Assembly: GCF_026151205.1 (NCBI RefSeq)
Contig: NC_087081.1
Coordinates: 3,973,246-4,037,245, forward strand
Length of the DNA stretch: 64,000 nt
Source of the DNA: Bolinopsis microptera
Taxonomy: Eukaryota; Ctenophora; Tentaculata; Lobata; Bolinopsidae
Direction of reading: 5' to 3'
Shown here: positions 6,366-55,300 of the stretch, piece by piece
Position numbering within the stretch: position 1 is the first letter of the stretch
Layout of the letters: the number at the start of each line of letters is the position of its first letter
Notes under the pieces: model-generated
What the model was told of the DNA's origin: nothing
Databases searched by the model: none
What the model saw: the letters and a program-made list of their open reading frames with translations, nothing else
Made by a program: the position numbers and the translations under genes

Positions 6366-6797
6366 TTTTATTTATTATTTATGATTTTATTATTTTATTA
6401 TGTCATTCTGTTCTTTATCTTTTATCTTTTATCTTTTATCTCTTATCTTTTATCTTCTGTCATTGTATATTTCGTGTAATGATTATATTTTGATTGCGTT
6501 TCATTTTTTTATGTGATTTGATTTATTTATTTACAATTTACATTTATATTTTGTTCGTAAGGTTTCCCTATTTACAGAACTTGCATCATACTATCATACA
6601 TCCATATCTCTCTCTATGATCAGAAAAGTCCGTCACATTTCATTTAATCCAACCGGTACAGTGACTTCTTCCTATCTATTTATTTTTATAACAATCAATT
6701 TTTATATAATATTTTTATTTTATTTATTTTATTTTATAATTCTAACGTTTTTCCAAGTTTTAAACTATTTTCACATCTACAATTAAATACATTTATT
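6366..6797. other. AT-rich non-coding, TTTTATC simple repeat
   Basis: Contains a short TCTTTTATC tandem repeat at about 6413-6460. No gene is seen up to the LINE boundary. Confidence 0.5.
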
Positions 6798-6947
6798 GAG
6801 GTATGACCAAAATGACCAACATGACAAAAATGTAATGTAATTGGAGGTATCAAATCTATTCAATCAACTTCAATCAACTTCAATCGACTTCAATCAATCT
6901 TTTTATCTACAACCAAACAACCTAACCAACTCAACCAACTCAACATC

Positions 6948-8684
6948 ATGAACGATTCATTGGAAACATTTTTCGGCAAATTATTGATGGAATGTGATAC
7001 AAAATGTAAAAACTGTTCAGATCTTGAAACTCGCGTGAAGTTTCTGGAGCGTAAAGTGTTCATTTTAGAGGAGATTGTTCAAACCTCACAAACAATAGCA
7101 GAGATTAATGAAACTATTTCGCCTCAAAGTGGAAACCAATCAATTGCTCAATACAAGTGTTTCGATGTATCAGTGCAAACGGACTCCAGCAACAATAACA
7201 TTCAGTATGACAATGAATGTGAGGTACCAGAATCATTTTTGTTGATTGATGATGATGGCTATGTAGAAGCACCTCTATCAATTATTTCTAACAACATAGA
7301 CATTTCAACCAGCGAGATTACAGACACTGGCTCAGTTATTCCAAGAAGTGGTGAATATTATGCAGGATTAGATTTAACACCTGTGTCAAGTTCAGACCTT
7401 ACTACAGACTATGAAATCCCTGATATCGCCATCACACCTGTTGAACTTATTGAACAGGCACCATTCAGCAAATTTTCTGTTGAAATCTTATTTGAGGAAT
7501 TAAAGTTCAGCCACCACTTCCATAACAGGAAATCAGTCTACTTTGGGAAACATCCTTACGTGTACAGTGGAGGAATGCATGACCCAAAGAAGATCCCCCA
7601 GGGATCTTACATGGCAAGTATATGTTCCTTTCTAGATGAGCTATTCCCAGAATACAACTACAACAGTGTTCTGGTCAATCTCTATGAATCTGGAGAGGAA
7701 CATATGCCTGCTCATAGTGACAATGAAGAATTTATTGAAGAAGATTCGTACATTGTAACAGTGTCCCTTGGTGCTTCCAGGATGATGCAGTTGACTGAAA
7801 TCAAAACAGGACAAGTGGTGACTTCCCTAATTTTAGAACATGGAGATGTATGTCTTATGTCCAAAAAGTCCCAACATCAATTCAACCATGAACTATGTCC
7901 CGATCCACTATGCACAGACAAAAGGATCAGTTTAACTTTTAGACTTATCAAACCAGTTGTCTGCAGTCAACCAAGAAAATCACCTTCTACAGCTAGTGGA
8001 TATGTACCCTACAACGAAAGTGAATTTGAAGTCCACCATTCCAGAGTTCAGAGTTCAGCCAAGTCAACTGCAGCGCCTCCTTCACCTGAACAGATCCCAA
8101 GTGACCTGCCAATTGATACCATCTACATCAGCAGCAGTATGTTCAGGGACCTCAACGGAACTCTACTAAGTTCGAGGAAGCAGAAAGCTAAGGTGTTCTT
8201 CTACCCTGGAGCGAACTCTGCTCAAATGCTAAATAGGCTGTTACATGATGAGGAGTTCAAAAAACTGGACAAAAAGGATGTAAAGCGTGTTTTCATACTA
8301 ACAGGCACAAACTACGTAGATTCTGTCTGTAACAATTATATTTCTATGAAAAATGCAACAGAAGGAATTGATCAAATACTTAGTATACTTTGGGGAATGT
8401 TTATTGGAGCAAGAATTTCAGTTATAAATATTTTACCTAGGAACAGTTATAACAAAAATGAAGTTATCAACGAATTAAATAGGTTTATTTCTAACACCTG
8501 CTCTAGCCATGGGTTAAATTATATAGATTTAGAACGTACCAATAGACTATTTACCAGCCGAGTTACTGGAGTAAGGAAACAGGTATTTTTCAAAAAGGGA
8601 ATAGATAATGTTCACCTTAATATCAAGGGAATCGCCAGGTTGGCGAAACATTTAAAATATTTATCCCACAATGAGCAAACTTAG
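6948..8684 (+). CDS. LINE ORF1: Cys/coiled-coil, AlkB-like dioxygenase, SGNH hydrolase
   Basis: 578 residues. Residues 16-23 form a C-x3-C-x2-C cluster, followed by a probable coiled coil at about 25-55. Residues about 175-335 are an AlkB-like 2-oxoglutarate/Fe(II) dioxygenase. H256-S-D258 and H310 are the iron ligands, and R326 and R332 (RISLTFR) are the 2-oxoglutarate-binding pair. Their spacing matches bacterial AlkB closely, and NLYESGEEHMPAHSD is typical of the family. Residues about 388-570 are an SGNH hydrolase: the GDS block is changed to SSS with S397 kept, followed by G453-T-N455 and the D553-N-V-H556 block. AlkB enzymes remove alkyl groups from DNA or RNA; SGNH domains occur in ORF1 of CR1-type LINEs. 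The fusion suggests an ORF1 that binds or repairs the element RNA, which is inference. The ATG at 6948 is the only sensible start. Confidence 0.88.
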   Translation: MNDSLETFFGKLLMECDTKCKNCSDLETRVKFLERKVFILEEIVQTSQTIAEINETISPQSGNQSIAQYKCFDVSVQTDSSNNNIQYDNECEVPESFLLIDDDGYVEAPLSIISNNIDISTSEITDTGSVIPRSGEYYAGLDLTPVSSSDLTTDYEIPDIAITPVELIEQAPFSKFSVEILFEELKFSHHFHNRKSVYFGKHPYVYSGGMHDPKKIPQGSYMASICSFLDELFPEYNYNSVLVNLYESGEEHMPAHSDNEEFIEEDSYIVTVSLGASRMMQLTEIKTGQVVTSLILEHGDVCLMSKKSQHQFNHELCPDPLCTDKRISLTFRLIKPVVCSQPRKSPSTASGYVPYNESEFEVHHSRVQSSAKSTAAPPSPEQIPSDLPIDTIYISSSMFRDLNGTLLSSRKQKAKVFFYPGANSAQMLNRLLHDEEFKKLDKKDVKRVFILTGTNYVDSVCNNYISMKNATEGIDQILSILWGMFIGARISVINILPRNSYNKNEVINELNRFISNTCSSHGLNYIDLERTNRLFTSRVTGVRKQVFFKKGIDNVHLNIKGIARLAKHLKYLSHNEQT

Positions 8685-8860: not shown

Positions 8861-9418
8861 CTTTATTATTACCACATTCGTACCTCAATAAACGATAATC
8901 TCTCTCTTGGTCTATGTAATATACAGGGTGGCCTGACTAATCTGGCAAAAACTCTCGAACTACAGGAGCTAATATTTCGCGAAAAGCTTGACATAATTGG
9001 AATTAATGAGACAAACCTTAAATCTGATATAGACACTAGTACACTTAACTTCCCCTTAAACTTTGATTTTATAAGGTGTGATAGACCTAACGATAGAGGA
9101 AGAGGAGGGTGTGGTATATTGATCAACCAAAATGTAAACCACAAATTACTCAATTTAGATATAACTTACTCTGATATTTCTAAAATCGAAGCTATATGGA
9201 TACAACTCAAGGATGCCAATCTTTACATTTGCTGCTTCTACAGATCACAAAACTTTTGTCACCTAGATACTTTCCTTGATTATATGACTGAATGTATGAT
9301 GAAACTTCAAGGTAAGAAAGTAATATGGATTGGCGATGTTAATGTTAACCAAAACTCTTTATCTGATCTAGATTATAAAAAGTTAGATATAACAATGAAG
9401 CTCTTTGGAATGATACAG
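8861..9418 (+). pseudogene. outer LINE ORF2, 5' fragment (endonuclease)
   Basis: The frame opens after a TAA at 8858-8860 and has no in-frame ATG before the TTG at 9119. It encodes the first half of an APE-type endonuclease: NIQGGLTNLAKTLELQEL, then GINETN with the catalytic Glu, GRGGCGILI, and WIGDVNVNQ with the Asp/Asn pair. The frame is cut at 9418, in the codons for GMIQ, by the inverted copy. The missing remainder lies at 14956-17394. The identical upstream frame is present in the inner copy, so the lack of an ATG is not a local defect. Confidence 0.85.
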
Positions 9419-9867
9419 AATTAGAATTAGAATTAGAATCAAATTTACACAGCAATACAATAAGAATAAAAATAATTTAAGAAGCTTCAATCTGCTGTGC
9501 AGGACATTCAAGTCAGTCGAAAACTGTTAGCAGAACACCCTTCTAGGGACATAAGGATATAGTTTGTAAAACATAATGAGTAATAATTAATGAGTGATAA
9601 AATAAGATATGATTTAACAGTGAACTGTGGGCATGAAGGTAACAATTAAGATTACATAGATGCCCACTTTGGGATAACGTTAGTAATGTTATTTACAGTT
9701 ATATACAGAGAAGTATAGAACAATAATAGATTGGCAATGATAAAAAATGGGAACGAATAAAGGAGATGTTTAAAGTTCTATACTTCTGGAAATACCTAGG
9801 TCATATATAACACAGGGGGCCTTTCCACCCGACAAAAACTCCAGCCCCATAAAATTTGTTTCAGTTG

Positions 9868-12864
9868 TCACTTAGCTAGAGTGTAGAAATAGTCGAAACT
9901 ATTGTTTATTTCATAGGATGAAACTCCTTGAATTACATCTGACATAAATTTAGATTTCATACATTGTGAGAATTTTACACTACATTCTATAGTCCTTATG
10001 TTCTCTGGAATTGTATTCCAACATTTTGCACCTAAATATGTAAAGGTTTTGTGTGTTCTGGATTTGTGAATATAAAGGTTGCACCTCTCAGCATCACGTG
10101 ATCCTCCGGATACATAAGAAAATTTATCTGTGAATGATGATGGTGCAGCCTCATTAAGAATTTTATACATATACGTTGACAGATGGAGTTGTCTTCTTAA
10201 GTGTAAGGGTAACCACTTCATATTTCGATATACATTTACTGATGGTTCCTGCCAATGAACATCCAGAGCAATTTTTGCTACTTTCTTGTATAATATATCA
10301 AGAGAATTAAGTTTGGTTTTGGCAGCCCTACACCATATTATATCCAGGTAGTCAAATTGGGGGAGCATAAGAGCATTTACAAACATTTTTCTATATTTCA
10401 GTGGAAGAAGATTTTTCGACCTGTATAATGCCCCTATTCTTTTAGCAATTTTTGATTTCACATAATCAATATGGTCATGAAAGTTCAATAAATTGTCTAT
10501 CATGAGACCTAAATATTTTTGAGATTTAGTTTCTTCTATAAATAGGCATTCTTTTTCCAAATCCAGAGGGATTGACAACGTGTCCAGATTAAGTGATCTA
10601 TCAAATACAATGAATGAAGATTTTGCAGCATTTAGTCTCAGCTTGTTGATTCTAAGCCATTCATACACAATTTTCATATCCTTAATTACATTCTCATATA
10701 TGCCTCGGGAAATGTTATCAAAATATAGTGCACTGTCATCTGCAAATAAGTAAACAGTAGATTGTGTGCAATTTCTACTGAGATCATTTATGAATAAACT
10801 AAATAGAATTGGTCCTAATATGCTACCCTGTGGCACACCTGTTTTAACAGGGAGTGATGTGCTTACATTACCACGTATTTTGGTGTGTTGCTTTCTGTCC
10901 CCCAGGTAGCTTTTGAACCACTTTATGACAAAGCCATCAACTCCATAATACTTAAGTTTTTTTAATAAAATATTATGGCTTACTGTGTCAAAGGCCTTTT
11001 TGATATCTAAGAATACAATTGCAGGTTTCTTCTGTGATTCCTTAGACGTAAATATTTTATCAAACAGATTAAGCATTAAAAAAGTGGTGGAATGATCTTT
11101 TCTAAAACCATACTGATGGTTGGTAAGCAGTTTATTTGTTTCAACATACTCTGTAAGCTGTTGGTTAACAAAATATTCTATGCATTTTCCAAGTAGGGGG
11201 AGTATGGATATTGGCCGGTAGTTATTTGGATCATTAGGGTCACCAGTTTTAAGAATTGGAGTGACTGATGCAATTTTACATGCCAACGGCATTGTTCCAC
11301 TTTTCATACTAAGGTTTATAATATGAGCTACTGGATCGATGATTTGGGGAATAATATACTTATATATTTTAATGGGCATGATATCGTTAATCGATTTATC
11401 TGATGGTATACTGAGTATATATTCTTTTACTTGTTCAACAGTCACCTCTTCGAATACAGAGAGTTTACACTCTGTTGGAGGCGGCATATATTCTAGGAAG
11501 TCGTCTGAATCCTTTTCCTTAATCGATTCTTGTATTATTGTACCAACTGTGGCAAAATGCAGGTTAACTCCGTTAACATTTAAGTTGCTTGGGGAAGAGC
11601 TACTTATTTTTCCAGGTAAGTTTGAAGCATGTTTGATAGTTTTCCAAATGCCTTTTAAATCGTTTTTTGCACTTTTCACAGTAAGGTCCTGAACAATATT
11701 TGTACGTCTGTTTTCTTTGGATAATTTTGTCACATAGTTTCTTTGGGGACGATAGTTATCCCACGAAGTAGAGCATTTCTTATGTAGTTCACTTTTTCTG
11801 CATTTACATATTCCATTAATACAATTACACTTGAATTTGTTTAATTGTCCTAAACACTTTTTATACTTTCTGAAGAGTATCTTCTTCTTCCGTATTTCTG
11901 CCAACAGTTCTTTAGAGGGATTACAGAGAAAGTTACTATTACATTTTATCTGTTTAGGTGGACAGTAATTATCATACGATTCCTGGATGTGATGATTAAG
12001 TCCATCTAGGGCATGGTCTACATTAGTACAGCTTAGAATATTACTGTAGTTGCTGGAGGATCCCAGAAAATAGCTTAAGGCTTTCAGATTGTTTAAGGAG
12101 TGGTCTCTGATAAGAACCTTCTGGAATTTACTAGCTTTACTTACTTTAAAGTCGAGAACACATTTGAGAGCTTGGTGATCTCCTATTCTATCATCAAGTA
12201 CTTTACACTCTATGAAATTAGAGTAACAGTTAGTCATGACAACATCTATTGTGCTCTGCGTTATCCTACCATCTAAGTTTGCAACTCTAGTAATTCCTGT
12301 AACAGTCTGTATCATTCCAAAGAGCTTCATTGTTATATCTAACTTTTTATAATCTAGATCAGATAAAGAGTTTTGGTTAACATTAACATCGCCAATCCAT
12401 ATTACTTTCTTACCTTGAAGTTTCATCATACATTCAGTCATATAATCAAGGAAAGTATCTAGGTGACAAAAGTTTTGTGATCTGTAGAAGCAGCAAATGT
12501 AAAGATTGGCATCCTTGAGTTGTATCCATATAGCTTCGATTTTAGAAATATCAGAGTAAGTTATATCTAAATTGAGTAATTTGTGGTTTACATTTTGGTT
12601 GATCAATATACCACACCCTCCTCTTCCTCTATCGTTAGGTCTATCACACCTTATAAAATCAAAGTTTAAGGGGAAGTTAAGTGTACTAGTGTCTATATCA
12701 GATTTAAGGTTTGTCTCATTAATTCCAATTATGTCAAGCTTTTCGCGAAATATTAGCTCCTGTAGTTCAAGAGTTTTTGCCAGATTAGTCAGGCCACCCT
12801 GTATATTACATAGACCAAGAGAGAGATTATCGTTTATTGAGGTACGAATGTGGTAATAATAAAG
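9868..12864 (-). CDS. LINE ORF2: APE endonuclease and reverse transcriptase
   Basis: The open frame is about 998 codons; 912 of them follow a TTG at 12606, and there is no ATG in the first 86. It provides target nicking and cDNA synthesis for retrotransposition. The N-terminal APE-type endonuclease carries NET, GDVN (72-75, counted from 12606), IDVVMTN and DH (143-144). A cysteine cluster follows at C251, C260, C262, C267, C269 and C278. The RT has NYRPISILP, motif A FLDIKKAFD (532-540), motif B GVPQGSILGP (590-599) and motif C FADD (621-624). There is no RNase H domain. The frame is intact, unlike in the outer copy. Translation may start at a non-AUG codon or by reinitiation after ORF1, whose stop lies 176 bases upstream of the open frame. 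Confidence 0.88.
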   Translation of the reverse strand, partial: LYYYHIRTSINDNLSLGLCNIQGGLTNLAKTLELQELIFREKLDIIGINETNLKSDIDTSTLNFPLNFDFIRCDRPNDRGRGGCGILINQNVNHKLLNLDITYSDISKIEAIWIQLKDANLYICCFYRSQNFCHLDTFLDYMTECMMKLQGKKVIWIGDVNVNQNSLSDLDYKKLDITMKLFGMIQTVTGITRVANLDGRITQSTIDVVMTNCYSNFIECKVLDDRIGDHQALKCVLDFKVSKASKFQKVLIRDHSLNNLKALSYFLGSSSNYSNILSCTNVDHALDGLNHHIQESYDNYCPPKQIKCNSNFLCNPSKELLAEIRKKKILFRKYKKCLGQLNKFKCNCINGICKCRKSELHKKCSTSWDNYRPQRNYVTKLSKENRRTNIVQDLTVKSAKNDLKGIWKTIKHASNLPGKISSSSPSNLNVNGVNLHFATVGTIIQESIKEKDSDDFLEYMPPPTECKLSVFEEVTVEQVKEYILSIPSDKSINDIMPIKIYKYIIPQIIDPVAHIINLSMKSGTMPLACKIASVTPILKTGDPNDPNNYRPISILPLLGKCIEYFVNQQLTEYVETNKLLTNHQYGFRKDHSTTFLMLNLFDKIFTSKESQKKPAIVFLDIKKAFDTVSHNILLKKLKYYGVDGFVIKWFKSYLGDRKQHTKIRGNVSTSLPVKTGVPQGSILGPILFSLFINDLSRNCTQSTVYLFADDSALYFDNISRGIYENVIKDMKIVYEWLRINKLRLNAAKSSFIVFDRSLNLDTLSIPLDLEKECLFIEETKSQKYLGLMIDNLLNFHDHIDYVKSKIAKRIGALYRSKNLLPLKYRKMFVNALMLPQFDYLDIIWCRAAKTKLNSLDILYKKVAKIALDVHWQEPSVNVYRNMKWLPLHLRRQLHLSTYMYKILNEAAPSSFTDKFSYVSGGSRDAERCNLYIHKSRTHKTFTYLGAKCWNTIPENIRTIECSVKFSQCMKSKFMSDVIQGVSSYEINNSFDYFYTLAK

Positions 12865-13040
12865 TTAAAAGGAGGACAAATCTATACGTTTCTTCTTCAA
12901 GCAATTTAAATAAAATTCATGACATTTAGTTTTATGTCATGCTGATTTATTTGTGACTTAATAATTTAAAATGTGATTCTTTGATAAAAGTATCAAATAC
13001 TCATTTAACTACAGAACTTTCTACAATCTGAATGGAGAGA

Positions 13041-14777
13041 CTAAGTTTGCTCATTGTGGGATAAATATTTTAAATGTTTCGCCAACCTGGCGATTCCCTT
13101 GATATTAAGGTGAACATTATCTATTCCCTTTTTGAAAAATACCTGTTTCCTTACTCCAGTAACTCGGCTGGTAAATAGTCTATTATTACGTTCTAAATCT
13201 ATATAATTTAACCCATGGCTAGAGCAGGTGTTAGAAATAAACCTATTTAATTCGTTGATAACTTCATTTTTGTTATAACTGTTCCTAGGTAAAATATTTA
13301 TAACTGAAATTCTTGCTCCAATAAACATTCCCCAAAGTATACTAAGTATTTGATCAATTCCTTCTGTTGCATTTTTCATAGAAATATAATTGTTACAGAC
13401 AGAATCTACGTAGTTTGTACCTGTTAGTATGAAAACACGCTTTACATCCTTTTTGTCCAGTTTTTTGAACTCCTCATCATGTAACAGCCTATTTAGCATT
13501 TGAGCAGAGTTCGCTCCAGGGTAGAAGAACACCTTAGCTTTCTGCTTCCTTGAACTTAGTAGAGTTCCGTTGAGGTCCCTGAACATACTGCTGCTGATGT
13601 AGATGGTATCAATTGGCAGGTCACTTGGGATCTGTTCAGGTGAAGGAGGCGCTGCAGTTGACTTGGCTGAACTCTTAACTCTGGAATGGTGGACTTCAAA
13701 TTCACTTTCGTTGTAGGGTACATATCCACTAGCTGAAGAAGGTGATTTTCTTGGTTGACTGCAGACAACTGGTTTGATAAGTCTAAAAGTTAAACTGATC
13801 CTTTTGTCTGTGCATAGTGGATCGGGACATAGTTCATGGTTGAATTGATGTTGGGACTTTTTGGACATAAGACATACATCTCCATGTTCTAAAATTAGGG
13901 AAGTCACCACTTGTCCTGTTTTGATTTCAGTCAACTGCATCATCCTGGAAGCACCAAGGGACACTGTTACAATGTACGAATTTTCTTCAATAAATTCTTC
14001 ATTGTCACTATGAGCAGGCATATGTTCCTCTCCAGATTCATAGAGATTGACCAGAACACTGTTGTAGTTGTATTCTGGGAATAGCTCATCTAGAAAAGAA
14101 CATATACTTGCCATGTAAGATCCCTGGGGGATCTTCTTTGGGTCATGCATTCCTCCACTGTACACGTAAGGATGTTTCTCAAAGTAGACTGATTTCCTGT
14201 TATGGAAGTGGTGGCTGAACTTTAATTCCTCAAATAAGATTTCAACAGAAAATTTGCTGAATGGTGCCTGTTCAATAAGTTCAACAGGTGTGATGGCGAT
14301 ATCAGGGATTTCATAGTCTGTAGTAAGGTCTGAACTTGACACAGGTGTTAAATCTAATCCTGCATAATATTCACCACTTCTTGGAATAACTGAGCCAGTG
14401 TCTGTAATCTCGCTGGTTGAAATGTCTATGTTGTTAGAAATAATTGATAGAGGTGCTTCTACATAGCCATCATCATCAATCAACAAAAATGATTCTGGTA
14501 CCTCACATTCATTGTCATACTGAATGTTATTGTTGCTGGAGTCCGTTTGCACTGATACATCGAAACACTTGTATTGAGCAATTGATTGGTTTCCACTTTG
14601 AGGCGAAATAGTTTCATTAATCTCTGCTATTGTTTGTGAGGTTTGAACAATCTCCTCTAAAATGAACACTTTACGCTCCAGAAACTTCACGCGAGTTTCA
14701 AGATCTGAACAGTTTGTACATTTTGTATCACATTCCATCAATAATTTGCCAAAAAATGTTTCCAATGAATCGTTCAT
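13041..14777 (-). CDS. LINE ORF1 (inner copy): AlkB-like dioxygenase plus SGNH hydrolase
   Basis: 578 residues, the same architecture as the outer ORF1 at 6948-8684. I count six replacements between them: K21T, G200E, D266N, T348S, Q368K and T531N. None touches the iron ligands H256, D258 and H310, the arginines R326 and R332, or the SGNH residues S397, N455, D553 and H556. That conservation in two copies shows the domain is a fixed part of the element and not a one-off capture. Confidence 0.88.
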   Translation of the reverse strand: MNDSLETFFGKLLMECDTKCTNCSDLETRVKFLERKVFILEEIVQTSQTIAEINETISPQSGNQSIAQYKCFDVSVQTDSSNNNIQYDNECEVPESFLLIDDDGYVEAPLSIISNNIDISTSEITDTGSVIPRSGEYYAGLDLTPVSSSDLTTDYEIPDIAITPVELIEQAPFSKFSVEILFEELKFSHHFHNRKSVYFEKHPYVYSGGMHDPKKIPQGSYMASICSFLDELFPEYNYNSVLVNLYESGEEHMPAHSDNEEFIEENSYIVTVSLGASRMMQLTEIKTGQVVTSLILEHGDVCLMSKKSQHQFNHELCPDPLCTDKRISLTFRLIKPVVCSQPRKSPSSASGYVPYNESEFEVHHSRVKSSAKSTAAPPSPEQIPSDLPIDTIYISSSMFRDLNGTLLSSRKQKAKVFFYPGANSAQMLNRLLHDEEFKKLDKKDVKRVFILTGTNYVDSVCNNYISMKNATEGIDQILSILWGMFIGARISVINILPRNSYNKNEVINELNRFISNTCSSHGLNYIDLERNNRLFTSRVTGVRKQVFFKKGIDNVHLNIKGIARLAKHLKYLSHNEQT

Positions 14778-14955
14778 GATGTTGAGTTGGTTGAGTTGGT
14801 TGTAGATAAATAGATTGATTGAAGTCGATTGAAGTTGATTGAAGTTGATTGAATAGATTTGATACCTCCAATTACATTACATTTTTGTCATGTTGGTCAT
14901 TTTGGTCATACCTCAAATTACTTGTTATATAGTAGTGTTGAAAGTATTAAAACAG

Positions 14956-17394
14956 ACTGTTACAGGAATTACTAGAGTTGCAAACTTAGATGGTAGGATA
15001 ACGCAGAGCACAATAGATGTTGTCATGACTAACTGTTACTCTAATTTCATAGAGTGTAAAGTACTTGATGATAGAATAGGAGATCACCAAGCTCTCAAAT
15101 GTGTTCTCGACTTTAAAGTAAGTAAAGCTAGTAAATTCCAGAAGGTTCTTATCAGAGACCACTCCTTAAACAATCTGAAAGCCTTAAGCTATTTTCTGGG
15201 ATCCTGCAGCAACTACAGTAATATTCTAAGCTGTACTAATGTAGACCATGCCCTAGATGGACTTAATCATCACATCCAGGAATCGTATGATAATTACTGT
15301 CCACCTAAACAGATAAAATGTAATAGTAACTTTCTCTGTAATCCCTCTAAAGAACTGTTGGCAGAAATACGGAAGAAGAAGATGCTTTTCAGAAAGTATA
15401 AAAAGTGTTTAGGACAATTAAACAAATTCAAGTGTAATTGTATTAATGGAATATGTAAATGCAGAAAAAGTGAACTACATAAGAAATGCTCTACTTCGTG
15501 GGATAACTATCGTCCCCAAAGAAACTATGTGACAAAATTATCCAAAGAAAACAGACGTACAAATATTGTTCAGGACCTTACTGTGAAAAGTGCAAAAAAC
15601 GATTTAAAAGGCATTTGGAAAACTATCAAACATGCTTCAAACTTACCTGGAAAAATAAGTAGCTCTTCCCCAAGCAACTTAAATGTTAACGGAGTTAACC
15701 TGCATTTTGCCACAGTTGGTACAATAATACAAGAATCGATTAAGGAAAAGGATTCAGACGACTTCCTAGAATATATGCCGCCTCCAACAGAGTGTAAACT
15801 CTCTGTATTCGAAGAGGTGACTGTTGAACAAGTAAAAGAATATATACTCAGTATACCATCAGATAAATCGATTAACGATATCATGCCCATTAAAATATAT
15901 AAGTATATTATTCCCCAAATCATCGATCCAGTAGCTCATATTATAAACCTTAGTATGAAAAGTGGAACAATGCCGTTGGCATGTAAAATTGCATCAGTCA
16001 CTCCAATTCTTAAAACTGGTGACCCTAATGATCCAAATAACTACCGGCCAATATCCATACTCCCCCTACTTGGAAAATGCATAGAATATTTTGTTAACCA
16101 ACAGCTTACAGAGTATGTTGAAACAAATAAACTGCTTACCAACCATCAGTATGGTTTTAGAAAAGATCATTCCACCACTTTTCTAATGCTTAATCTATTT
16201 GATAAAATATTTACGTCTAAGGAATCACAGAAGAAACCTGCAATTGTATTCTTAGATATCAAAAAGGCCTTTGACACAGTAAGCCATAATATTTTATTAA
16301 AAAAACTTAAGTATTATGGAGTTGATGGCTTTGTCATAAAGTGGTTCAAAAGCTACCTTGGGGACAGAAAGCAACACACCAAAATACGTGGTAATGTAAG
16401 CACATCACTCCCTGTTAAAACAGGTGTGCCACAGGGTAGCATATTAGGACCAATTCTATTTAGTTTATTCATAAATGATCTCAGTAGAAATTGCACACAA
16501 TCTACTGTTTACTTATTTGCAGATGATAGTGCACTATATTTTGATAACATTTCCCGAGGCATATATGAGAATGTAATTAAGGATATGAAAATTGTGTATG
16601 AATGGCTTAGAATCAACAAGCTAAGACTAAATGCTGCAAAATCTTCATTCATTGTATTTGATAGATCACCTAATCTGGACACGTTGACAATCCCTCTGGA
16701 TTTGGAAAAAGAATGCCTATTTATAGAAGAAACTAAATCTCAAAAATATTTAGGTCTCATGATAGACAATTTATTGAACTTTCAAGACCATATTGATTAT
16801 GTGAAATCAAAAATTGCTAAAAGAATAGGGGCATTATACAGGTCGAAAAATCTTCTTCCACTGAAATATAGAAAAAAGTTTGTAAATGCTCTTATGCTCC
16901 CCCAATTTGACTACCTGGATATAATATGGTGTAGGGCTGCCAAAACCAAACTTAATTCTCTTGATATATTATACAAGAAAGTAGCAAAAATTGCTCTGGA
17001 TGTACATTGGCAGGAACCATCAGTAAATGTATATCGAAATATGAAGTGGTTACCCTTACACTTAAGAAGACAACTCCATCTATCAACGTATATGTATAAA
17101 ATCCTTAATGAGGCTGCACCATCATCATTCACAGATAAATTTTCTTATGTATCCGGAGGATCACGTGATGCTGAGAGGTGCAACCTTTATATTCACAAAT
17201 CCAGAACACACAAAACCTTTACATATTTAGGTGCAAAATGTTGGAATACAATTCCAGAGAACATAAGGACTATAGAATGTAGTGTAAAATTCTCACAATG
17301 TATGAAATCTAAATTTATGTCAGATGTAATTCAAGGAGTCTCATCCTATGAAATAAACAATAGTTTCGACTATTTCTACACTCTAGCTATGTGA
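14956..17394 (+). pseudogene. outer LINE ORF2, 3' fragment (late endonuclease, RT)
   Basis: Continues the ORF2 broken at 9418, starting at TVTGITRVANLDGR. It holds the end of the endonuclease, the cysteine cluster and the whole RT (FLDIKKAFD, GVPQGSILGP, FADD), and ends at TGA 17392-17394 (the last residue is Met where the inner copy has Lys). The apparent start at 14890 is an artefact: its first codons come from the inner element's 5' end read backwards. It has a handful of replacements relative to the inner copy and no internal stop. Confidence 0.85.
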
Positions 17395-17852
17395 CAACTG
17401 AAACAAATTTTATGGTGCTGGAGTTTTTGTCGGGTGGAAAGGCCCCCTGCGTTATATATGACCTAGGTTTTTCCAGAAGTATAGAACTTTAAACATCTCC
17501 TTTATTCGTTCCCATTTTTTATCATTGCCAATCTATTATTGTTCTATACTTCTCTGTATATAACTGTAAATAACATTACTAACGTAATCCCAAAGTGGGC
17601 ATCTATGTAATCTTAATTGTTACCTTCATGCCCACAGTTCACTGTTAAATCATATCTTATTTTATCACTCATTAATTTATTACTCATTATGTTTTACATA
17701 CTATATCCTTATGTCCCTAGAAGGGTGTTCTGATAACAGTTTTCGACTGACTTGAATGTCCTGCACAGCAGATTGAAGCTTCTTAAATTATTTTTATTCT
17801 TATTGTATTGCTGTGTAAATTTGATTCTAATTCTAATAATTCTAATTCTAAT
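17395..17852 (+). other. LINE 3' UTR with TTCTAA tandem tail
   Basis: Matches the reverse complement of 9419-9867. It ends in repeated ATTCTAATTCTAA units, the short tandem tail typical of CR1/L2-type LINE 3' ends. Confidence 0.8.
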
Positions 17853-40300: not shown

Positions 40301-43300
40301 TTACAGATTAAACAAGTTTACAATAAATCAATTTGATATTTAACGGAATCCTAATTCAATGTGCAGTATGGTTGTCACTCTTTAAATAGATTAGATATAG
40401 GTTGACGGGGCAAAGGAGTGTGCGTGCTGTTCGCTATTGCTCACACCAAACGGCAACCTAGTAAATGTTTTGTATGAACACCGGTCTCCATCACGACACA
40501 AAATTAGGATTGTAGAATTTATTGTATAACTATTAGTGCAGTGGAGGTAGCGGTGTGGTGCATTAATAGAGTGACAGCCTACTGATTTAGAGTTGTTTTT
40601 AAGTGAGCATAATGGGTGTATTTTTGGATCTAATGGCAACTTTAAAATTTGTTCTTTTAATCATTTATTAAATATCAGTTTAAAAATATATAAATCTGGA
40701 ATCTGTTCACTCTGTGAACCAGTCCTAAAAAAATTCCAAAAACCCTCCTAAATTAAATATTAAAAACGTCTCAGTAATGGAAATAGTCATACAATTAAGA
40801 AATTATCCAAATTCTTAATATCTACCTAAGAGAAAAATACCTACCTAAGTCAATTTCTACCTGTAATACACTAAATATTAGGTTAAATACATAGGTGGTG
40901 GAGTCAGCACACATTTACCAAAATCAAAATTGTTTAATAGGTGGAGCCTGTGGGCCGAGATCACTGGATTAAATTTGATGAAGGGGGTTGTTTTCAAATG
41001 ACAGCTGCATTATGTCATAATCGCTTGTGGTCCATGCCGAATCATTATAAGCATGTTGCAGCTTTAGAAGTGCCTTTTTCAGGCGACTTTTAGCAAGGCT
41101 AATCTTGTAGGAGTAGTCAAAGAGCTTAAGTTTAGGTGCAATTGTGTTCCAAATTTTGGTGGATCTTGATATAAAGTCATTAGATGGGAGTTGTGAAATG
41201 ATAGTGGTTTCCTTTCTAGAAGATGACTGATAATGCTGTTGCAGTGATGCTGGGCACCTTAGTTTTAGTATTTTAAAAACTTCCATAAATGTGTGATATG
41301 TATATAAATTTTTGAAAGCCAGGATGTTTTGTTGCTTGAAAAGTGGTTTACAGTGCTCTAGTTGGAAGAATGTATGGTCAAGTGCCTGGCTGTCAAACTC
41401 TCTTGTTCTTGCACATGTAAGGAACTTGTTTAGGTATGCCTCTTTATCACCAAAGAGGACCCGTACACAGTGCTTCTGAGACAGCCAGATACTTGCTGTC
41501 CTAAAGAGTGCTGCATCACCCCAAACTGAGATACAATATGTGAGGTGGGATTCAAATAGTGTGTGGTAGAGGTCTTTATGGAGTTCCTTTGGTACAGAGT
41601 CCCTAATTCTATTTAAGGTGGCAGAGGCATAGTTTAACTTTCGTTTAAGTGCTGTTATATGAGGCCCCCAGGAAAGCTGTTCGTCAATAACAACTCCAAG
41701 AAACTTAGTTGCTTTGGTTTTTTTAATTGGAAAGCCATCAATATGGAGTTGAAGCGAATCTGGCAATTCTACTGGTTTACTAGCCTTTGGTTTAAAATGC
41801 ATATAACAGCACTTTGACATGTTGATGTGAAGTTTGTTAAGGATCATATACTTTTTTATACAGCTTAGCAATTTGTTGCCTTTCTCATAAGCTTCTTCTA
41901 CAGTTTTTCCATCAATAAAAATGTTGGTGTCGTCAGCAAATAGTATGAAGGTTCCTAAATCCGAGGAATTGGCAATATCATTTATGTATAGAAGAAAAAG
42001 GAGCGGTCCCAAAACAGAGCCTTGTGGAACTCCATATTTAATGATAAGGTTTTCGGATTTTTCATTAAGGACTTCTGTATACTGTGTTCTATTTGATAAG
42101 TAGCTTTTAATCAGACAGTTTGCATTGCCTCTTATTCCATACCTATCTAGTTTTGTTAGGAGTGTACTATGGTCGATTGTATCAAATGCTTTACTCAAAT
42201 CTATAAATATAATAAAATTTCGTTTATGGAAACTTGCCAATTTATGTTTGTTTACTGTTTAAGACACATGACAATAATTTATTTACACACAGATGTCAAA
42301 ATTAGCCCCCTTTATTATACAATATGCAAATAAAACTATTTAAAAAACGACGAACACGTTTGTCCCATTTTCTCAAAATAACATTGATGATTGATGATTG
42401 ATGATTGATGATTGATGATTGATGATTGATGATTGATGATTGATGATTGATGATTGATGATTGATGATTGATGATTGATGATTGATGATTGATGATTGAT
42501 GATTGATGATTGATGATTGATGATTGATGATTGATGATTGATGATTGATGATTGATGATTGATGATTGATGATTGATGATTGATGATTGATGATTGATGA
42601 TTGATGATTGATGATTGATGATTGATGATTGATGATTGATGATTGATGATTGATGATTGATGATTGATGATTGATGATTGATGATTGATGATTGATGATT
42701 GATGATTGATGATTGATGATTGATGATTGATGATTGATGATTGATGATTGATGATTGATGATTGATGATTGATGATTGATGATTGATGATTGATGATTGA
42801 TGAGTTTTTAATACTTTCAACACTACTATATAACAAATAATTTTAGGCATGTACGCTAACATGGCGGCAAAGTGCAGCTGAATCGGCGGGTATGATGGGG
42901 ATCTGGGGAGCCAGATGGGTGTCTTGAGTTGTTCACTGCCAGTGTCTCCTTCTCTTCCACCCAGCATAAAGCTGGGTGGCTCTTAACTTCACTACCAGGT
43001 TGTACATTGATATCTGGATATTATCCGGTTGGATATTGACTAAATAAAAATTTAGTTATACCTATTTTTACCACTTTTTATCTCAATCAGTTTCAATTAT
43101 TCAACCTCCATAATACTCTCTTCTTTTATGAGTCCAGGATAACAGTTGCTGCATCCTCAGCAAGTTTCTTGTTGAGAGGATGGTTTTTTGATGATCTTGC
43201 TAGCATAATGACCACTGGTCGCTGCTATCACTGTTCTCATTAATTCTTTCTTCAATTTTGTTATTTCACCATTCAACTCACTTTCTTTCCTCAGCTTATA

Positions 43301-46300
43301 CACTTAATCGCTGACAACTGGTGGTGACTGCTCCTGATACCTTGACGGCAATCCAGTGAACCTGAATCCAGCTCCTTCATCTTGGTACAATACAATGTTT
43401 AACCTCAAAGATACTATTGAATCGCTTTCATCCGCTTCAACACAGGACCTAGCAGCCCTCATTAAAACTGCTCAGAAGATTATGGATTGTAGGCACCTGG
43501 ATGGACACTTGCAATTTATTCCAGATATAATTGACAGTGCAGTTTGTTCCGACTTGTTGGCTGAGTGTGATTCCCTCAACTTGTCGGCTTCATCCAGAAG
43601 ACCTGAGTCACAATGGCTCAGTGTAACCGACAGGCCTCCTAGGCACTAATGCAACGGTATACCAGTGTGAACTGTTTGCTCTCAACACATCAGCTCACTG
43701 GGCAACTATCAATATTTCAGAACCTGGGAGTATAACATTCTTTTCAGACTCACAGGCAGCAATCCTAGCAGTCACACACCACACAGTCACATCTAACTTA
43801 GTACTTGATACCATTAACTACCTTAACAAACTAGGACAAACCCACTCAGTTAATGTCAGGTGGGTCCCAGGACATGCAGGTATTCCAGGAAACGAAAGAG
43901 CTGATGAACTAGCCAGAGAAGGATCACTCACAATCGCTCTAGGTCCTGAACCCTTCATCAGCATATCCGAAGGAGCAATTAAGACGGCAGTAAAGGAGTA
44001 TTTACACGGAATTCATCTTCGTAGATACAGAAACACGGCACTGAGCGAGAAAGGGAAAATACCACTAACAATCCTACTCACCAAATATAAATACAGGAAT
44101 CTTGGACTTGCAGGAAATCATCAAAGATGGCTAACCTGGCTCTTCACAGGACATAGCCCCCTAGCCTACTTCCAATACAAGGCAAACAATTTCACATCCC
44201 CCCGTTGTGAACACTGTCCAGAAGAGGAAGAAACCTCGGAACACTTCATGTGTCACTGTATAGGATACATGACCATTAGGCTAAGAATTTTCGGTAATAC
44301 ATTTCTAACCTGGGAAGACATAGTATCAGCTAGAATTAGTACGGTTATAAAATTTATCGAGGCAACCAATAGACTACTAAAGGAGGATCTTTTCGAGGAT
44401 CCCATTAACCACTAATACAAATAGGACATCTTGCAGTTTTCTAGGCATTGACCGTCCCTGGAAGTCCCTGTCTCCCCATCGTTAACCCGTAAGGGGTTGC
44501 ACCAGGGGCGGTGGTAACAGAACTTCAAGACTCTCGGAGTCTGTTGTCGATATCTATGTATAATATATTTATGGTATATAATTTGGGAGTCCCTCTCTCC
44601 AGCAGCAGGAGTTGGAGAATGGGGACGCGTTGTGAAAGCCACCGCAAGGAAGGCTTACAGTCGACGCCGACCAATCAAAAGAAGAACCGACAGGCCTTAC
44701 ATATATGTCGATAGTAAGCCAGTACATCATGCTAAGGACATTACCACACTTCTTACTTTCAGTAAAGTTATGGAGACATTTAATGAGAGGTTTAATTGCA
44801 AAATAGACTCTTGTTTAGTACTCAAGTACACTTCAACAAGTGCAGGTACGAGTCTGCATACAGAACAGAAGCCTGGTGCTTATGAAACCTGGTACCCAGG
44901 AGGTTATGAAACATCGCGTTCCTGGTGAATCAGGCGCACCTGGGACACCTTCGCTGAGATATTCATTATTGTTCCGGGCTATGGCAAAGCGTCCTCAGCC
45001 ACCTCCACCGGAAGTAGCACAAACGAAGGGAGCTGAACAACCGTCAGGTCACGTCAAGAGTGATATTGATAACGGCAGCCTCACAGCTCCAGCAGTCAGA
45101 CTTGTGTGCCTAATCGCCGGTGATAGCTATGCTGCCAGGCTGGACACTGTAAAACTTGGTAGAAAATGTGTTGATGTTGTGTCTGTTGCCAGTGGAGGTG
45201 CAAGAATACATCAAGTGATGGAGCAGATTAGAGATTTTAAGTCTAAGAATGAATCTGTCATTGTAGATAAGATATGTATTAGTGTCGGAACGAACGACAT
45301 TAGATATGCGGACTCTTTAGATAAGATTAAGGTTAAATTTAAGAGTCTATGTGCTTTAATCAAACAACTTTATACTTCTTCAAAAGTTTATTTTCAGTCC
45401 CTTTTACCTCTGCCTTGCAAAAGCAGGCATGACTTGAGAACTAACTCTTTTGTTATGAAAATGAATAGTGTCATCAAGAATGAATGTATATATCGAAGAT
45501 TCCATATGCTAGACGCTTTTCGTCCATTTTCTCTACGATACTTTGATCCACGAGTACCTCATATCAGAGATGATAGATTTTTCAAGGCTTGAGACATCCA
45601 TCCCAGTGAGGCTAGGGCATGGGTGTCCTAGCTTAACTTTATCTGAGAGCGGTTCATATTAACTTTTTTGACCCATTCACTTTTCAGTAAAATTACTATT
45701 AGGGCTTAAGGGGTCAAGCTAGTCTACATAATTCGAATTTTAAGATATATTAGAGTGTTTTTTTAAAGTTTTTGGAGCTGGATGTCGGTTAACAGGGTTC
45801 CCTTAATGCTACTAAATGATTGATCTATCATCTAAGTCAATATAGATTAAAAGTTGGTATTCGCCACATGGAATGTTAGAGGCATTAGTCAGGAACACTC
45901 GCAGCATCTAGCTGCAAATGATTGCAACAGATACAACTTGGATGTTATAGCCCTCCAAGAAACAAAGGTGTCTAAACACTCAGACACTGTTATACCCGGC
46001 AACCACAGGCTTCTTTTGTTTAACCAGAATTTGTCTTGGCATGGCGGACTCGGTTTTATTATCAACAGTAAATTTGTATCAAATGTTGTCTCGTACCATC
46101 AAATCAGTGACAGAGTAGCATACATGGACCTTTCTCTACCATCAAAGTGTCATGGGAAACCATCACTGAAAGCCCGTATTATAAACTGCTACAGTCCAAC
46201 TAATGTCAAATCTATACAGAACCCACGCATTGCTGATGAGTTTTACTGTGAGCTCCAGGAAGCTATCAGAATTCCTGCCAGACATGAACTTTTTATCTTG

Positions 46301-49300
46301 GGTGATTTTAATGCTAGGCTAGGGAAACGGACTAAATCAGATTTTGAAAGTGGTCTTCAAACTAACATGGGAAGACATGGTATTGGTCGGCGTAACGAAA
46401 ATGGCGAAAGGTTGCTAGCTTTCATGATCACTAATGGACTCTATGCAGCCAACACTGCATTTTCACATGCGAGCAGACACACCAACACTTTTACAGGATG
46501 GATTAAAGACCGTAGATCCAAAAAGTCTGTACCCTGGTTTTCTCAAATTGATTATGTTTTATGTAGATCTAGAAGTACCCCTCTGCTTGTTGACGCTAGG
46601 TCTTACGCTGGTGCAAAACTTCAATCTGATCACAAAATTGTAAAAGCAACTTTTGACCTCAGTAAACGTTACAAACTTTACAGTACTGCCAAACTCAAAG
46701 TCAAGCAGTATAACACCAACTCATTGGTTTGTAGCAAAGATGTTCAAAGTTCTTTTCAACAAAATGCTGCTCAGAAGATTGAAACTGATACATCTGCCCA
46801 GTCAGTCACTGAAAGTTTTAACAACCTTTTCGAGGCGGTTAAAATTGCTGCATCTGAAACAGTGGGTATGAAAAGAAACACAGCCAAACGTCACAGAACA
46901 ACAGACCCACAAGTCGTCTCTATGTCAGAAAAGAGACACCAATTACTACAACATTTAAACGACAACAAAATGCGTGACAGAACTATCCTGCGTAAGGAAA
47001 TCAACAGACTCAAGAATGACATTGCAAAGCGCCTTATTACACTTGAAACCGCTCATGCCGACCTTCTAGCTGAGACGATCAACTCCACTGATGATACCAG
47101 AAGAATGTTCGAAGCAACCAGAGCGATTTCAAGCACAAAGGACACTCCTCCCATTTCAGTATTCCTACCAGAAACAGAAGAACTTGCTCTCAATGACGAA
47201 GATAAGGCAGACATAGTCAAGAACTGGTTCATGGAACATTACACAGGCCCAGAACCCCCACTAGAACCTTTTGTTGGAGCTGCTAAGCCATTAGATACGC
47301 CTATAACTGCACTTGAAGTTGAGACAGCAGCCAAGAAACTAAAGAACGGTAAAGCCGTTGGTCCTGACAACCTCCCTAACGAATTCCTTAAGTATGCACC
47401 TCCTTCTTTCTACATGAAGTTTGCATCACTTATCAATGAGTCCTTTGAAAAACAAGAGCACGTCCAATCGTTCACTGAGGGATATCTTACCCCCCTACAG
47501 AAGCCTGGAAAACCAAAAAGACCAGTTAAGAGTCTGCGTCCCTTATGCCTTCTCAATGGAACTAGGAAAATCCTTTCCATGATAACACTCCAGCGTATTC
47601 AACAACAGATAGCAAACTACACTGGGCCATGGCAGAATGCCTATAAATCAGGACACAGCTGCTCTAATATTGTCTGGACACAAAGGGTTCTTATTTCTGT
47701 TGTCAAGGAGAAACATTGGGAGTTTAGTAAAATGGGGATAGACATGTCATCAGCCTTCGACACAATACATCGGTCAACTATCCTCAGGCTACTCGAAGAT
47801 GCAGGATGCTCAGAAGATGACATAAGACTAGTTAGATATCTACTCGCTAACACCAAGCTCAGAATTAAGATCAAAAAGACGACATCGGGAGAGTTCGAAG
47901 TCACAATAGGAGCCTTTCAAGGTGACTGTTTGTCTGGCTCGCTGTTTACCATGTACCTAGCTGGAGCACTCTACCACCTTAGAGTTGTTGTTATACATCT
48001 ACGTCCAAATCCCCCCATATCTGAAAGCTCCCTTCCTTTAGAATGGGAATATGCTGATGATGTGGACTTTGCTGATGAAGATGAGGATTCGTTACACCAG
48101 CTCCTTCCAATTTGCAAGGAAATTCTCTCAGAATGGAATTTGTTTGTAAATGAATCTAAAACCGAGTTTGTAAAGTGTTATCTGGCTGGAAGTAGTGAGA
48201 AGGACGAAAAAGGAGAACCTCTAAGAAATAGAGAACCTTGGAGGAAGTGTGTGTCCCTAGGCTCTAAGCTATGTAGTAAAGAAGACATACAGCATCGTAT
48301 AATCCTTGGAAATGTTGCATTCGAAAAATACAAGAAAGTTTGGATGCAAGGATCTAAGATTAATCTGAAGACCAAGATTAAGATATACGAAGCATACGTT
48401 ACATCTGTTATGCTCTATAACTGCAATAGCTGGGCTACCCCTCAGAACCTATTTGACAAACTTGATGCATGTCATAGAAGACACCTGCGTCAAATATTGA
48501 AGATGACTTATCCCATTATTATCAGTAATAAAGCACTATATGAACGCTGTGGTGTAACACCGTTGTCAGAGCGAGTGACATATGCTCGCTGGAAAATGCT
48601 GGGACATGTCCTTCGCAGTGACTGCTCATCACCAGCTCAGAGAGCTCTTCAATTTGCTGTTAATGCGTTATTTACCATGAAAGGACGTGTTGGTCGACAC
48701 CAAAGTAATCTTTTAAAGTTTATTATAAATGATTTGAATAAAAGAAACCTACCATTACGTGATATTAATGATCTTTATGATCTTAGGGCTACTGCCTCTA
48801 ACAGAGTTTTGTGGAGAAAATTATTTACCTCATAATTAACCTTTATTTTTCAGAGAACTGTTATGTTTTTTTGGGCACTTATCAGTCTCTTAAGATGTTT
48901 CTTTACTATTTCGAGATTGTTTTAAAAGTTAGATAATAATAATAATTTATAACAACAGTAAGAACCGCAGATCTAAGCAGGTTAGTATTACAGGTAACTT
49001 TGTGCCCGACATCGGGGTTCTTGATGCTTTAAGACTTTTTGTTTTGATTTATTTGTATCTCTATTTTGCATAATGTGTGATGAGTGTGACGATTGGGATG
49101 GCTTTGGAGTGTCATTTTAGACCTTTTACTGTCACAGCCTTCCACAGTATCTCAGACAATGAATTTATTCATCTCTTTCACAGTCATAGCAAAAGCTATG
49201 CTGCGGTATTAATGTTTTTTCTCTTCAAAAAAGACTGGTGGCTTTATAAAATATTAGGGGCTTCTCCTGGCTTACTTGGCAAGCTGTTCTTCACTGGTCT

Positions 49301-52300: not shown

Positions 52301-55300
52301 ATTTTTTTAACTTTAGTATACATTTTACAGGTTTATTTTGTGAATTTAAGTGATTTTCTGAGAATCAGTTATCAGTATTTAGATATGAGATAAGATAAGA
52401 GTATCTTTTTTCACAGCTTTTAGTTCATCAGATTTTCACACTTCTTTTAGTTTGTATATTTACAAAGAAGAGAATATATATATTCTCAATTGTATATGAT
52501 TAGTATTTGTTATAGTTGCTTTAATGATATAATTTCTCAGAATTGATGTTAATAAATGATGCAAAGAATTACGAGGATCTAGTCAAACCGCTTTTTTTAT
52601 TGTGTAGAAGTTCAGCAATGAAATATATATCTTACTATATATAAAGCGAGACGATATATATATATATCCGTACCATTTTACTGACACCACGACATCAACT
52701 TTAACACGACTTTCCGCAAAAACCGTAAAAGATATACAACTTAAACTTTTTTGACTGGTTCAAATGCTCTAATGATCTTCAAATCAGCATGAAAAAATAA
52801 AAAAATGGCCAAGGAATAATAATTTTAGTGCCCAAAATGTGGACCCCCAAGTGGTGTCAAAAACGCGAATTAAATAGGTAATAATTATTTTAGTCTCTTG
52901 AGTCTTGACACCACTTTAGACGGGTTCCTGCTAGTATATATAAACCCTGCACTCGAGGGTGCAGGGTTTAAATGCTGCAGAGCAGAAGTTGATCTCCACA
53001 GGCCAACTCAGAAGTATGTTTCACCAGACAACATCGCTGCACCTATCAGATCAGCTCTCAAAGAAGTGAAAGGATGGAAGGATGTGGTTATTAGACCTTT
53101 TGACAAAGGGGTAGGATTCTTTCTTCTTGGAGAGGAAGAATATGTTCAACGAATAGGTGTACATTTGAATGATAGATCTGTATATAGTATTGTAAATAAT
53201 GTAGATGATTTAGTTTCAGAATTAATTGATAAATTTCATGTTGGACAGTCAAGTATAAAGAAGAATTAGGTATGTCTAAGAAGGTCAGGGAGTGGGTTAT
53301 TCCGTGTACGGAGCTCAACCAGCCTGGTAATATGTACCTGGATCCCAAGGCCCACAAGCCACCTTTGTACCCTGGGAGGATGATTACTACTGAATGTGGT
53401 TCGTACATTGAGAACCTATCTGCCTTGACTGCATACGAATTGAAGAAGGCTATTTTAAATTATAGAATTATTGACACCCCTCATTTTCTGAGGAAGATTG
53501 ATAGCTTGAATGAGTCCACCATATTGTTGGGTAAGGAGGTGATACATGTTGCCATAGATATATCCAACATGTTCACCAATATCCCTAGGGATATGGGGAT
53601 CAATGCACCAAGCACCTGAATGAAAGAAGTAGTTATGATCAATTGTTCAGTACAGAATGCATTATTAGTGCTCTAGAAATCACTCTTGATTACAACATAG
53701 CTTCATTCAACGGTATAACATACCGTCAGGAGCGTGGAGCGGCGATGGGTCATAAGAACTCATGTGAGTATGCAGATTGTGCTATGGATAAGATCGATAT
53801 TTTAGTTAATGAAAGAGATTTAGAACATGGCCCGCCACACAGACCAGCATTCTGGGGTAGGTTGCGCGACGATATATATATGGCCTGGCCTGGTACTGTT
53901 GAGGAGCTTCTACAATTTATGGAATGGCTCAATAGTATCCATCCGGACCTTGTGTTTACTTACGACTACTCTAAGGATGGTGTTGAGTTTTTAGACACAT
54001 TATTGTAGACGATGCTTTCAACAAATTTAGTGATATAACCAATAGGAAAAACTTGTATGCCTCTAAAAATAAGGATGAGACGACTACTTGTCTAATACCC
54101 ATGGTGATGGATCAGAATCCAGCACTTCCCAACATGGGGAGCATTATTCACAAGTATAAGCACCTTCTTAATCTCGATCCAGCCTTGAAGAAGCTAGTAC
54201 GTGCTGACAGTGTATATTTTGTAAGTCACCGAAAGAATCAAACTATCGGTGGCATGCTTGTACACAATAAGTATCGTGCTAGTGGAACTGTAAGCAGTGA
54301 TAGAGATGGAGAAGCCACTGCTAGTCAATTTCTTGAACCAGAGGCTGCAATATTGCCGGCTGTTCGGGAGGCTGACAACGCAGGGTGACATGCCTGTGGA
54401 AAATGCTATGTTTGTAAGCAAAGTTTCCTGTCCCCTTGTTCCAAATTGAGTAGTCACCATTCCAAACAAGTTTTCCCTATTACTAAATATATAACTTGTC
54501 AGAGTAATAACCTTATTTATTTAATGGAGTGTAGAACTTGTAAACAGTCGTATGTAGGATATACTACTTCTAATCTCCCTAAGAGATTTTCTAATCATAA
54601 GAGCCACATTAAGAAAGGTATCAGGAGTTGTAAGTTAGTAAATCACTTTTTAGATATTGATCATGATTTAGATTTTAGTTCAGTAGCCTTATATAACTCT
54701 TCACTTAGTACGCACCTTTCTGTTATTATAGTGGACGCTCTAGAATTTAAACCTGCAATAAGTAAAGCAGATAGGGAAAAGGCCATGGAAGCTAGAGAGG
54801 GGTTCTACCAGACCCAATTGAAAACCCTTGGGCGTTATGGGGGTATGAACACCCTCGATAGTAACCACATCCTTTTTAAATCCGCTGGAGCTTAGTGTTT
54901 AGTTTATTTATTTTATTTAACATGATCTTAGCCTATAAACCCGTGTTTAGTTTACAATATTGCTATCAGAGACGTGTTATATTCATTACTATTTATATAT
55001 TTTTATTGCTTGATTCAGAGAAATCTAGCTTTTTCCGAGAAACTAACCTTTAATAGATTAGATAAGATGTACTCAGCCATTCTTTTCGTTTGATTATTAC
55101 TCAGTATGTTTTAGTTTTGTACCGTTTTAAGTCACATAGTTTTGTACGTCTTCCTAAGACTTGTTTTCCTTTCCTAGTTTGTAAGTTATTTTAAAGATTT
55201 GTGTATATTCCAGTTGCTTTTAGAACAATTTTATCTCAGATAACGATGTTTAATAAAATGATGCAAAGAATTTCGAAGATCTAATCAACACCGACTTTTA

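Follow-up and report, generated by a model that had tools for sequence, protein, structure and literature searches.

Why would a long interspersed nuclear element (LINE) encode a putative demethylase in its first open reading frame (ORF)? This question is raised by a 578-residue ORF1 in a 64,000-nucleotide stretch of DNA (hereafter the window; C10:3973246-4037245 of a 264,652,675-base assembly that also served for the genome searches), which a preliminary description had read as a fusion of an AlkB-like dioxygenase and an SGNH hydrolase. Based on domain matches, intact active-site residues and many open, near-identical copies, our computational analysis identifies the window element as a recently active LINE, that is, a non-LTR (long terminal repeat) retrotransposon, with a predicted ORF1 fusion of an N-terminal helix, an ALKBH2/3-type 2-oxoglutarate (2OG)-Fe(II) dioxygenase and an SGNH esterase. 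The window contains two copies of it, A and B, organized as follows:

6756-6800 (+): spliced-leader-like sequence (SL3 type) directly 5′ of copy A; nearly the same leader is found on another genomic copy, L018
6801-9418 (+): outer copy A, first part, with 5′ untranslated region, ORF1 and start of ORF2
6948-8684 (+): ORF1 of copy A, with helix (residues 21-57), AlkB (160-336), low-confidence linker and SGNH (385-577)
7425-7955 (+): AlkB-type 2OG-Fe(II) dioxygenase domain, residues 160-336 of copy A ORF1
8100-8678 (+): SGNH hydrolase domain, residues 385-577 of copy A ORF1
8861-9418 (+): 5′ part of copy A ORF2 (endonuclease), a frame interrupted by copy B, its start positioned using the copy B offset
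9419-14911 (–): copy B, inverted and full length, inside copy A, with a (TTCTAA)n tail at 9419-9440
9868-12864 (–): ORF2 of copy B, endonuclease and reverse transcriptase, a 998-residue open frame
13041-14777 (–): ORF1 of copy B, 578 residues, differing from copy A in ten codons
14912-14955 (–): SL1 spliced leader directly 5′ of copy B, outer edge uncertain by a few bases
14956-17852 (+): outer copy A, second part, with the remaining ORF2 (to 17394), 3′ untranslated region and short-repeat tail

Inverted-repeat and BLAST comparison showed that both copies are ∼99% identical, that copy B lies within ORF2 of copy A, and that its own sequence is uninterrupted at the point of insertion. This indicates that the AlkB-SGNH ORF1 belongs to the transposing unit. 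The endonuclease/reverse transcriptase ORF2 noticed earlier was recovered by Pfam in copy B, with matches to Exo_endo_phos (26.5 bits, cut-off 24.5) and RVT_1 (135.3 bits) identifying an APE-type endonuclease and a reverse transcriptase. No in-frame ATG precedes the endonuclease in this frame, whereas ORF2 of a related 551-residue family (L065) has one. The short 3′ tandem repeat is at most suggestive of the CR1/L2 clade.

Within ORF1, Pfam assigned residues 202-332 to 2OG-FeII_Oxy_2 (PF13532; E 1.1e-20, 75.1 bits, cut-off 31.2). The modeled domain adopts the double-stranded β-helix, with ABH2 as the best fold match. The iron triad H256, D258 and H314 and the 2OG-site arginines R326 and R332 are all present. 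The preliminary description had correctly named H256-x-D258 and R326-x5-R332 but took H310 for the distal iron histidine, from which followed spacings of 54 and 16 residues and a likeness to bacterial AlkB. Position 310 varies freely among homologues, ruling it out as an iron ligand, while H314 is conserved; moreover, the profiles favor ALKBH2/3 over the bacterial enzyme. General AlkB and repair families were matched among the PHROGs profiles, and all NCBIfam matches were far under their cut-offs. BFVD matches of ORF1 to RNA-virus polyproteins (1e-12 to 1e-17) presumably reflect an AlkB segment in the latter. Downstream of this domain, Lipase_GDSL_2 matches residues 419-561 with an E value of 1.6e-5, below the curated cut-off, and the full set of SGNH residues is present (S397, G421, N455 and the D-x-x-H pair D553 and H556), in agreement with the hydrolase proposed before. 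The esterase of zebrafish ZfL2-1 (4c1b) is a weak profile match to ORF1 (E 0.0076), and one helix is predicted N-terminally.

The best sequence match of the AlkB domain is ALKBH3 (E 2.4e-24), as opposed to an E value of 0.07 for ALKBH5. This ranking favors an ALKBH2/3-type over an ALKBH5-type domain and bears on the alternative that the domain removes N6-methyladenosine (m6A) from the element RNA, thereby evading host m6A readers or silencing. E260, which follows the HxD motif, is kept in 118 of 119 ORF1s and in the ALKBH2 and ALKBH3 proteins of the same genome; ALKBH5 is not known to have a glutamate at this place. Among published systems, a Ty3/Gypsy element of an orchid encodes an AlkB protein with m6A demethylase activity in vitro, for which evasion was proposed (PMC9289625), and m6A influences L1 retrotransposition in mammals. 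But this orchid protein falls within the ALKBH5 homologues of Arabidopsis (PMC9289625). We retain m6A removal as a rival, but the profile ranking makes it quite unlikely.

A search with ORF1 yielded 139 homologous proteins at E ≤ 0.001; the seven with a named source among the matches listed are all from Mnemiopsis leidyi. A search with a single AlkB domain gave one protein (P0121) at E ≤ 1e-6 among six candidates, and two viral-contig scans revealed no relative. In an alignment of 121 homologues (the 120 listed and P0121; counts over non-gap rows), H256 and D258 are kept in 119/119, H314 in 119/120 and both arginines in 120/120. The SGNH residues follow closely: S397 in 120/120, G421 in 117/119, N455 in 118/118, D553 in 115/117 and H556 in 114/117. 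Since some 2OG-dioxygenase folds are catalytically dead, the domain could have been retained for binding or folding rather than catalysis. This is very unlikely, because all 61 aligned ORF1s keep the iron and 2OG residues unchanged at a mean column identity of 26%. Over 627 aligned positions, copy B and Mnemiopsis protein P0116 share 56% identity in their reverse transcriptases; P0116 also has an AlkB piece above cut-off and a weak SGNH match.

The fusion is also widespread within the genome. From 819 first-look candidates, 75 matches to ORF1 were scored, of which 63 span residues ≤170 to ≥574 (hand count) without a single internal stop: 14 at 93-100% identity, 10 at 57-60%, 27 at 41-45% and 12 at 37-38%. 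The remaining 12 are shorter, three of them with stops. Twenty copies sampling all four identity groups (L009-L028) were chosen for close reading. Together with copies A and B, all 22 keep the five AlkB residues, E260, S397, G421, D553 and H556, while N455 is present in 21, L010 having D instead. Between copy A and L022 of subfamily ii, the non-synonymous distance dN is 0.24 for the N-terminal part, 0.22 for AlkB, 0.61 for the linker and 0.41 for SGNH; for A/L025 and A/L026 it is 0.38 for AlkB and 0.65 for SGNH. The synonymous distance dS between subfamilies is at least 1.6 or saturated, so that dN/dS values, for instance 0.13 for AlkB, are approximate.

Could the fused frame nevertheless have arisen by chance or through misassembly, or represent a host ALKBH gene next to a LINE? 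Nothing was found in favor of this reading, and we consider it refuted, with virtually no chance of being correct, by the recurrence of the frame at many genomic sites and in further data sets, Mnemiopsis among them, and by the tree grouping described below. PF13532 gave 587 first-look candidates in the genome, 150 of which were scored, resulting in 151 matches; every one among those listed is above cut-off. Besides the 20 ORF1 copies, seven loci were read, namely three stand-alone frames, three LINEs (L063-L065) and one Helitron-like frame. L060 is ALKBH2-like (3.9e-60 to human ABH2), L061 is ALKBH3-like (2.5e-39), and L062 clusters with L061 (support 99/96); the ALKBH2- and ALKBH3-like genes are thus located elsewhere than the LINE. 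The Helitron-like frame (L059, 3883-9999, +) encodes 3,388 residues, 2,039 of which were read, with SGNH (27.0 bits, below the cut-off of 32.9), AlkB (76.5 bits), DUF6570 and Helitron_like_N (32.8 bits, cut-off 28.9). L064 is a LINE with a 593-residue ORF1 (AlkB 70.6 bits, above cut-off; Lipase_GDSL_2 weak, E 0.001, below cut-off) and an ORF2 only 28% identical to that of the window. L063 has an 843-residue ORF1 (AlkB 81.1 bits) and an SGNH match weaker than that of L064 (E 0.0079).

A tree of 45 AlkB domains was restricted to ALKBH2, ALKBH3-like, stand-alone, Helitron and ORF1 rows. It included 13 ORF1 homologues from the 120 listed; its 19 stand-alone proteins were P0121 plus 18 drawn from 119 new entries in a listing of 120 out of 724 matches. 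Twenty-one of 22 ORF1 rows, comprising eight of nine from this genome and the 13 homologues, form one group that excludes the ALKBH2/3-like and stand-alone rows, with a support of 93/90 that is not a firm value. The 843-residue class falls outside, and the Helitron row stands beside the group on a long branch (87/80). A single origin of the mobile-element AlkB is neither shown nor rejected by the approximately unbiased (AU) test (p 0.196 for the 22 ORF1 rows and 0.106 after adding the Helitron).

Some observations on other frames may be added. Among the PF13532 matches listed, other AlkB frames measure 2225-3366 residues, and further classes about 676, 707, 778 and 884 residues. The start of ORF2 in L064 (3686-6499, +) is Cys-rich and PHD-like by eye, but Pfam reported no PHD there. 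The window itself contains a second LINE (44840-48835, +) with an SGNH ORF1 (Lipase_GDSL_2, 8.2e-9) and an endonuclease/reverse transcriptase ORF2, without an AlkB match. At 52898-54895 (+), reverse-transcriptase-like and GIY-YIG-like frames are seen by eye, perhaps a Penelope-like element.

ORF1 and ORF2 may not share their history. In subfamily ii, where the ORF2 comparison covered three copies, the ORF1s of L022 and L023 are 55% identical to that of the window, while their ORF2s are 98.7% (L022, 992 residues) and 96-98% identical (L023, two frames of 400 and 601 residues); in L021, the sole ORF2 match is at 54% on the other strand. Across the ORF1/ORF2 border, nucleotide identity between L009 and L022 is 0.60, 0.93 and 0.99 in consecutive 150-base windows. 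From this step and the divergent ORF1 beside a near-identical ORF2, it appears that related elements swap ORF1 as a whole.

The 5′ ends of the copies suggest in which form the element RNA may be copied. Using the published spliced leader of Hormiphora californensis (PMC8527503) as query, the 5′ flank of copy B scores highest within the window (45), followed by a second site at ∼42803-42846 (+; score 44). The leader of copy A scores 30, below the maximum of 32 over 30 shuffled leaders, and was therefore assigned by its position and its sharing with L018. Genome-wide counts covered SL1 and SL2: the SL1 pattern occurs 1,423 times with two mismatches allowed (reversed control 0), and SL2 occurs 838 times (control 0). 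A leader directly precedes the LINE body, complete or nearly so, in 17 of the 22 copies and partially in two (L020, L027); a script restricted to two 5′ motifs found none in L023, L025 and L026. Within subfamily i, near-identical copies bear three different leaders: SL1 (L009, L012, L014, L016, L017 and B), SL2 (L010, L011, L013, L015 and L019) or SL3 (L018 and A). Many SL2 sites lie ∼434 bases apart at C1:14.49-14.55 Mb (array C1:14490815-14549191, L057). In three array units read, SL2 runs into GTAAGA, which is a 5′ splice site, rather than into LINE sequence; this fits a candidate SL-RNA gene array; Rfam gave only sub-threshold matches for the candidate gene (SmY, 17.6 bits against 39). On the simplest reading, LINE RNA would be trans-spliced to a host leader prior to reverse transcription, the leader changing between rounds; we claim no novelty for spliced leaders on LINEs. 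Together with the Mnemiopsis relatives, the leaders point to a ctenophore as the most likely source. Leaders also precede many non-LINE sequences (L037-L056), some of them repeated (e.g., L045, L049 and L050), which are perhaps retrocopies or short elements.

What, then, could the fusion do? We propose, with a probability of roughly 0.55, that the ORF1 protein multimerizes on the trans-spliced RNA of the element, perhaps also on the first cDNA strand, where the AlkB domain with Fe(II) and 2OG would oxidize methyl groups off Watson-Crick positions, of the 1-methyladenosine (m1A) and 3-methylcytidine (m3C) type. The nucleic acid would thereby stay readable for ribosomes and the element's own reverse transcriptase. 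The SGNH domain would work on lipid or acyl esters or help to place the particle at membranes, a role as proposed for ZfL2-1 (PMC3905857, PMC4120745). The self-encoded demethylase suggested in the preliminary description is plausible by profile, fold, conservation and copy number, and it may protect element RNA or cDNA, as we infer. The link to reverse transcription rests on findings with R2, whose reverse transcriptase appears to be impeded by modifications; treatment with AlkB strips m1A and m3C and increases the capture of most 3′ tRNA halves (PMC12140624).

Several observations weigh against this proposal. The profile ranking is no proof of substrate choice, and both DNA and RNA are substrates of ALKBH2/3-type enzymes. 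Helitrons are not known to use a reverse transcriptase, and with SGNH and AlkB in L059, clearing of reverse transcription templates cannot be the sole reason for keeping these domains. The lower divergence of AlkB relative to SGNH is reversed in comparison with subfamily iv (dN of 0.76 for AlkB and 0.66 for SGNH in A/L028, 0.75 and 0.66 in L022/L028, 0.72 and 0.69 in L026/L028). Between copy A and its 93% copy L020, dN is 0.030 for AlkB and 0.025 for SGNH (dN/dS 0.29 and 0.21), and the AlkB domains of A and L019 differ by three non-synonymous and no synonymous changes. Copy B carries G200E in its AlkB domain, at a position that is G in 61/61 aligned ORF1s and in 115/117 homologues of the larger alignment. 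Finally, intact tRNAs show only modest changes after AlkB treatment (PMC12140624).

Some observations would suit a different role, in which the domain would act during target-primed reverse transcription and repair methyl lesions of target DNA or of single-stranded cDNA. The best fold match, ABH2, is a DNA-repair enzyme, and the same two domains occur in the Helitron-like frame, Helitrons being thought to move via single-stranded DNA. LINE ORF1 proteins, however, are thought to be mainly RNA-binding, and ALKBH3, the best sequence match, acts on RNA too. The former objection is softened by the reported lack of a known RNA-binding fold in esterase ORF1 proteins (PMC3905857). Overall, we regard protection of a DNA intermediate as rather unlikely. 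Beyond the action on element RNA that we prefer, AlkB plus SGNH may be a common self-protection module of ctenophore mobile elements, present in ORF1 of distant LINEs, swapped as a unit and carried by Helitrons too, which would protect element nucleic acids from methylation that the host employs or that is inflicted within it, the LINEs gaining a fresh host spliced leader in each copying round. We advance this idea tentatively, at somewhat less than even chances. The 587 first-look AlkB candidates in one genome suggest a benefit to the elements and raise the testable question of whether methyl marks or lesions on RNA or single-stranded DNA limit retrotransposition and whether elements counter them. 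From the exchangeable leaders, the trans-splicing of element RNA to spliced leaders can be read out.

How does this element compare with known systems? The preliminary description knew of no LINE with such a fusion, and we likewise found no described LINE with AlkB or another nucleic-acid demethylase in the open-licence PMC literature. Captured 2OG-Fe(II) dioxygenases occur in fungal mobile elements, but these are TET/JBP rather than AlkB proteins, carried by DNA transposons and Helitrons, and no retrotransposon with TET/JBP was found in that study (PMC12730594). Plant RNA viruses of the Alpha-/Betaflexiviridae and Closteroviridae (named in PMC9289625) likewise place AlkB within a replication protein, but in a replicase polyprotein without a LINE reverse transcriptase. 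The esterase-type (Type IV) ORF1 of CR1/L2 LINEs such as ZfL2-1 shares the N-terminal helix, the SGNH domain and the endonuclease/reverse transcriptase ORF2; the main texts of the papers describing this type contain no mention of AlkB or an oxygenase (PMC3905857, PMC4120745), and esterase ORF1 was found there only in vertebrate groups (PMC4120745), as opposed to the apparent ctenophore studied here. A precedent is the Ty3/Gypsy element of the orchid Phalaenopsis, a retrotransposon encoding an AlkB-type demethylase as a 2-ODD ORF (PMC9289625). This is an LTR element with a separate, ALKBH5-nested extra ORF, whereas the window element, an animal LINE, has a LINE-type ORF2, no ALKBH5-type ORF, and an ORF1 fusion of the ALKBH2/3 type with SGNH. 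An AlkB domain on a retrotransposon was therefore already known, and what appears to be new is the AlkB-SGNH fusion in the ORF1 of a LINE.
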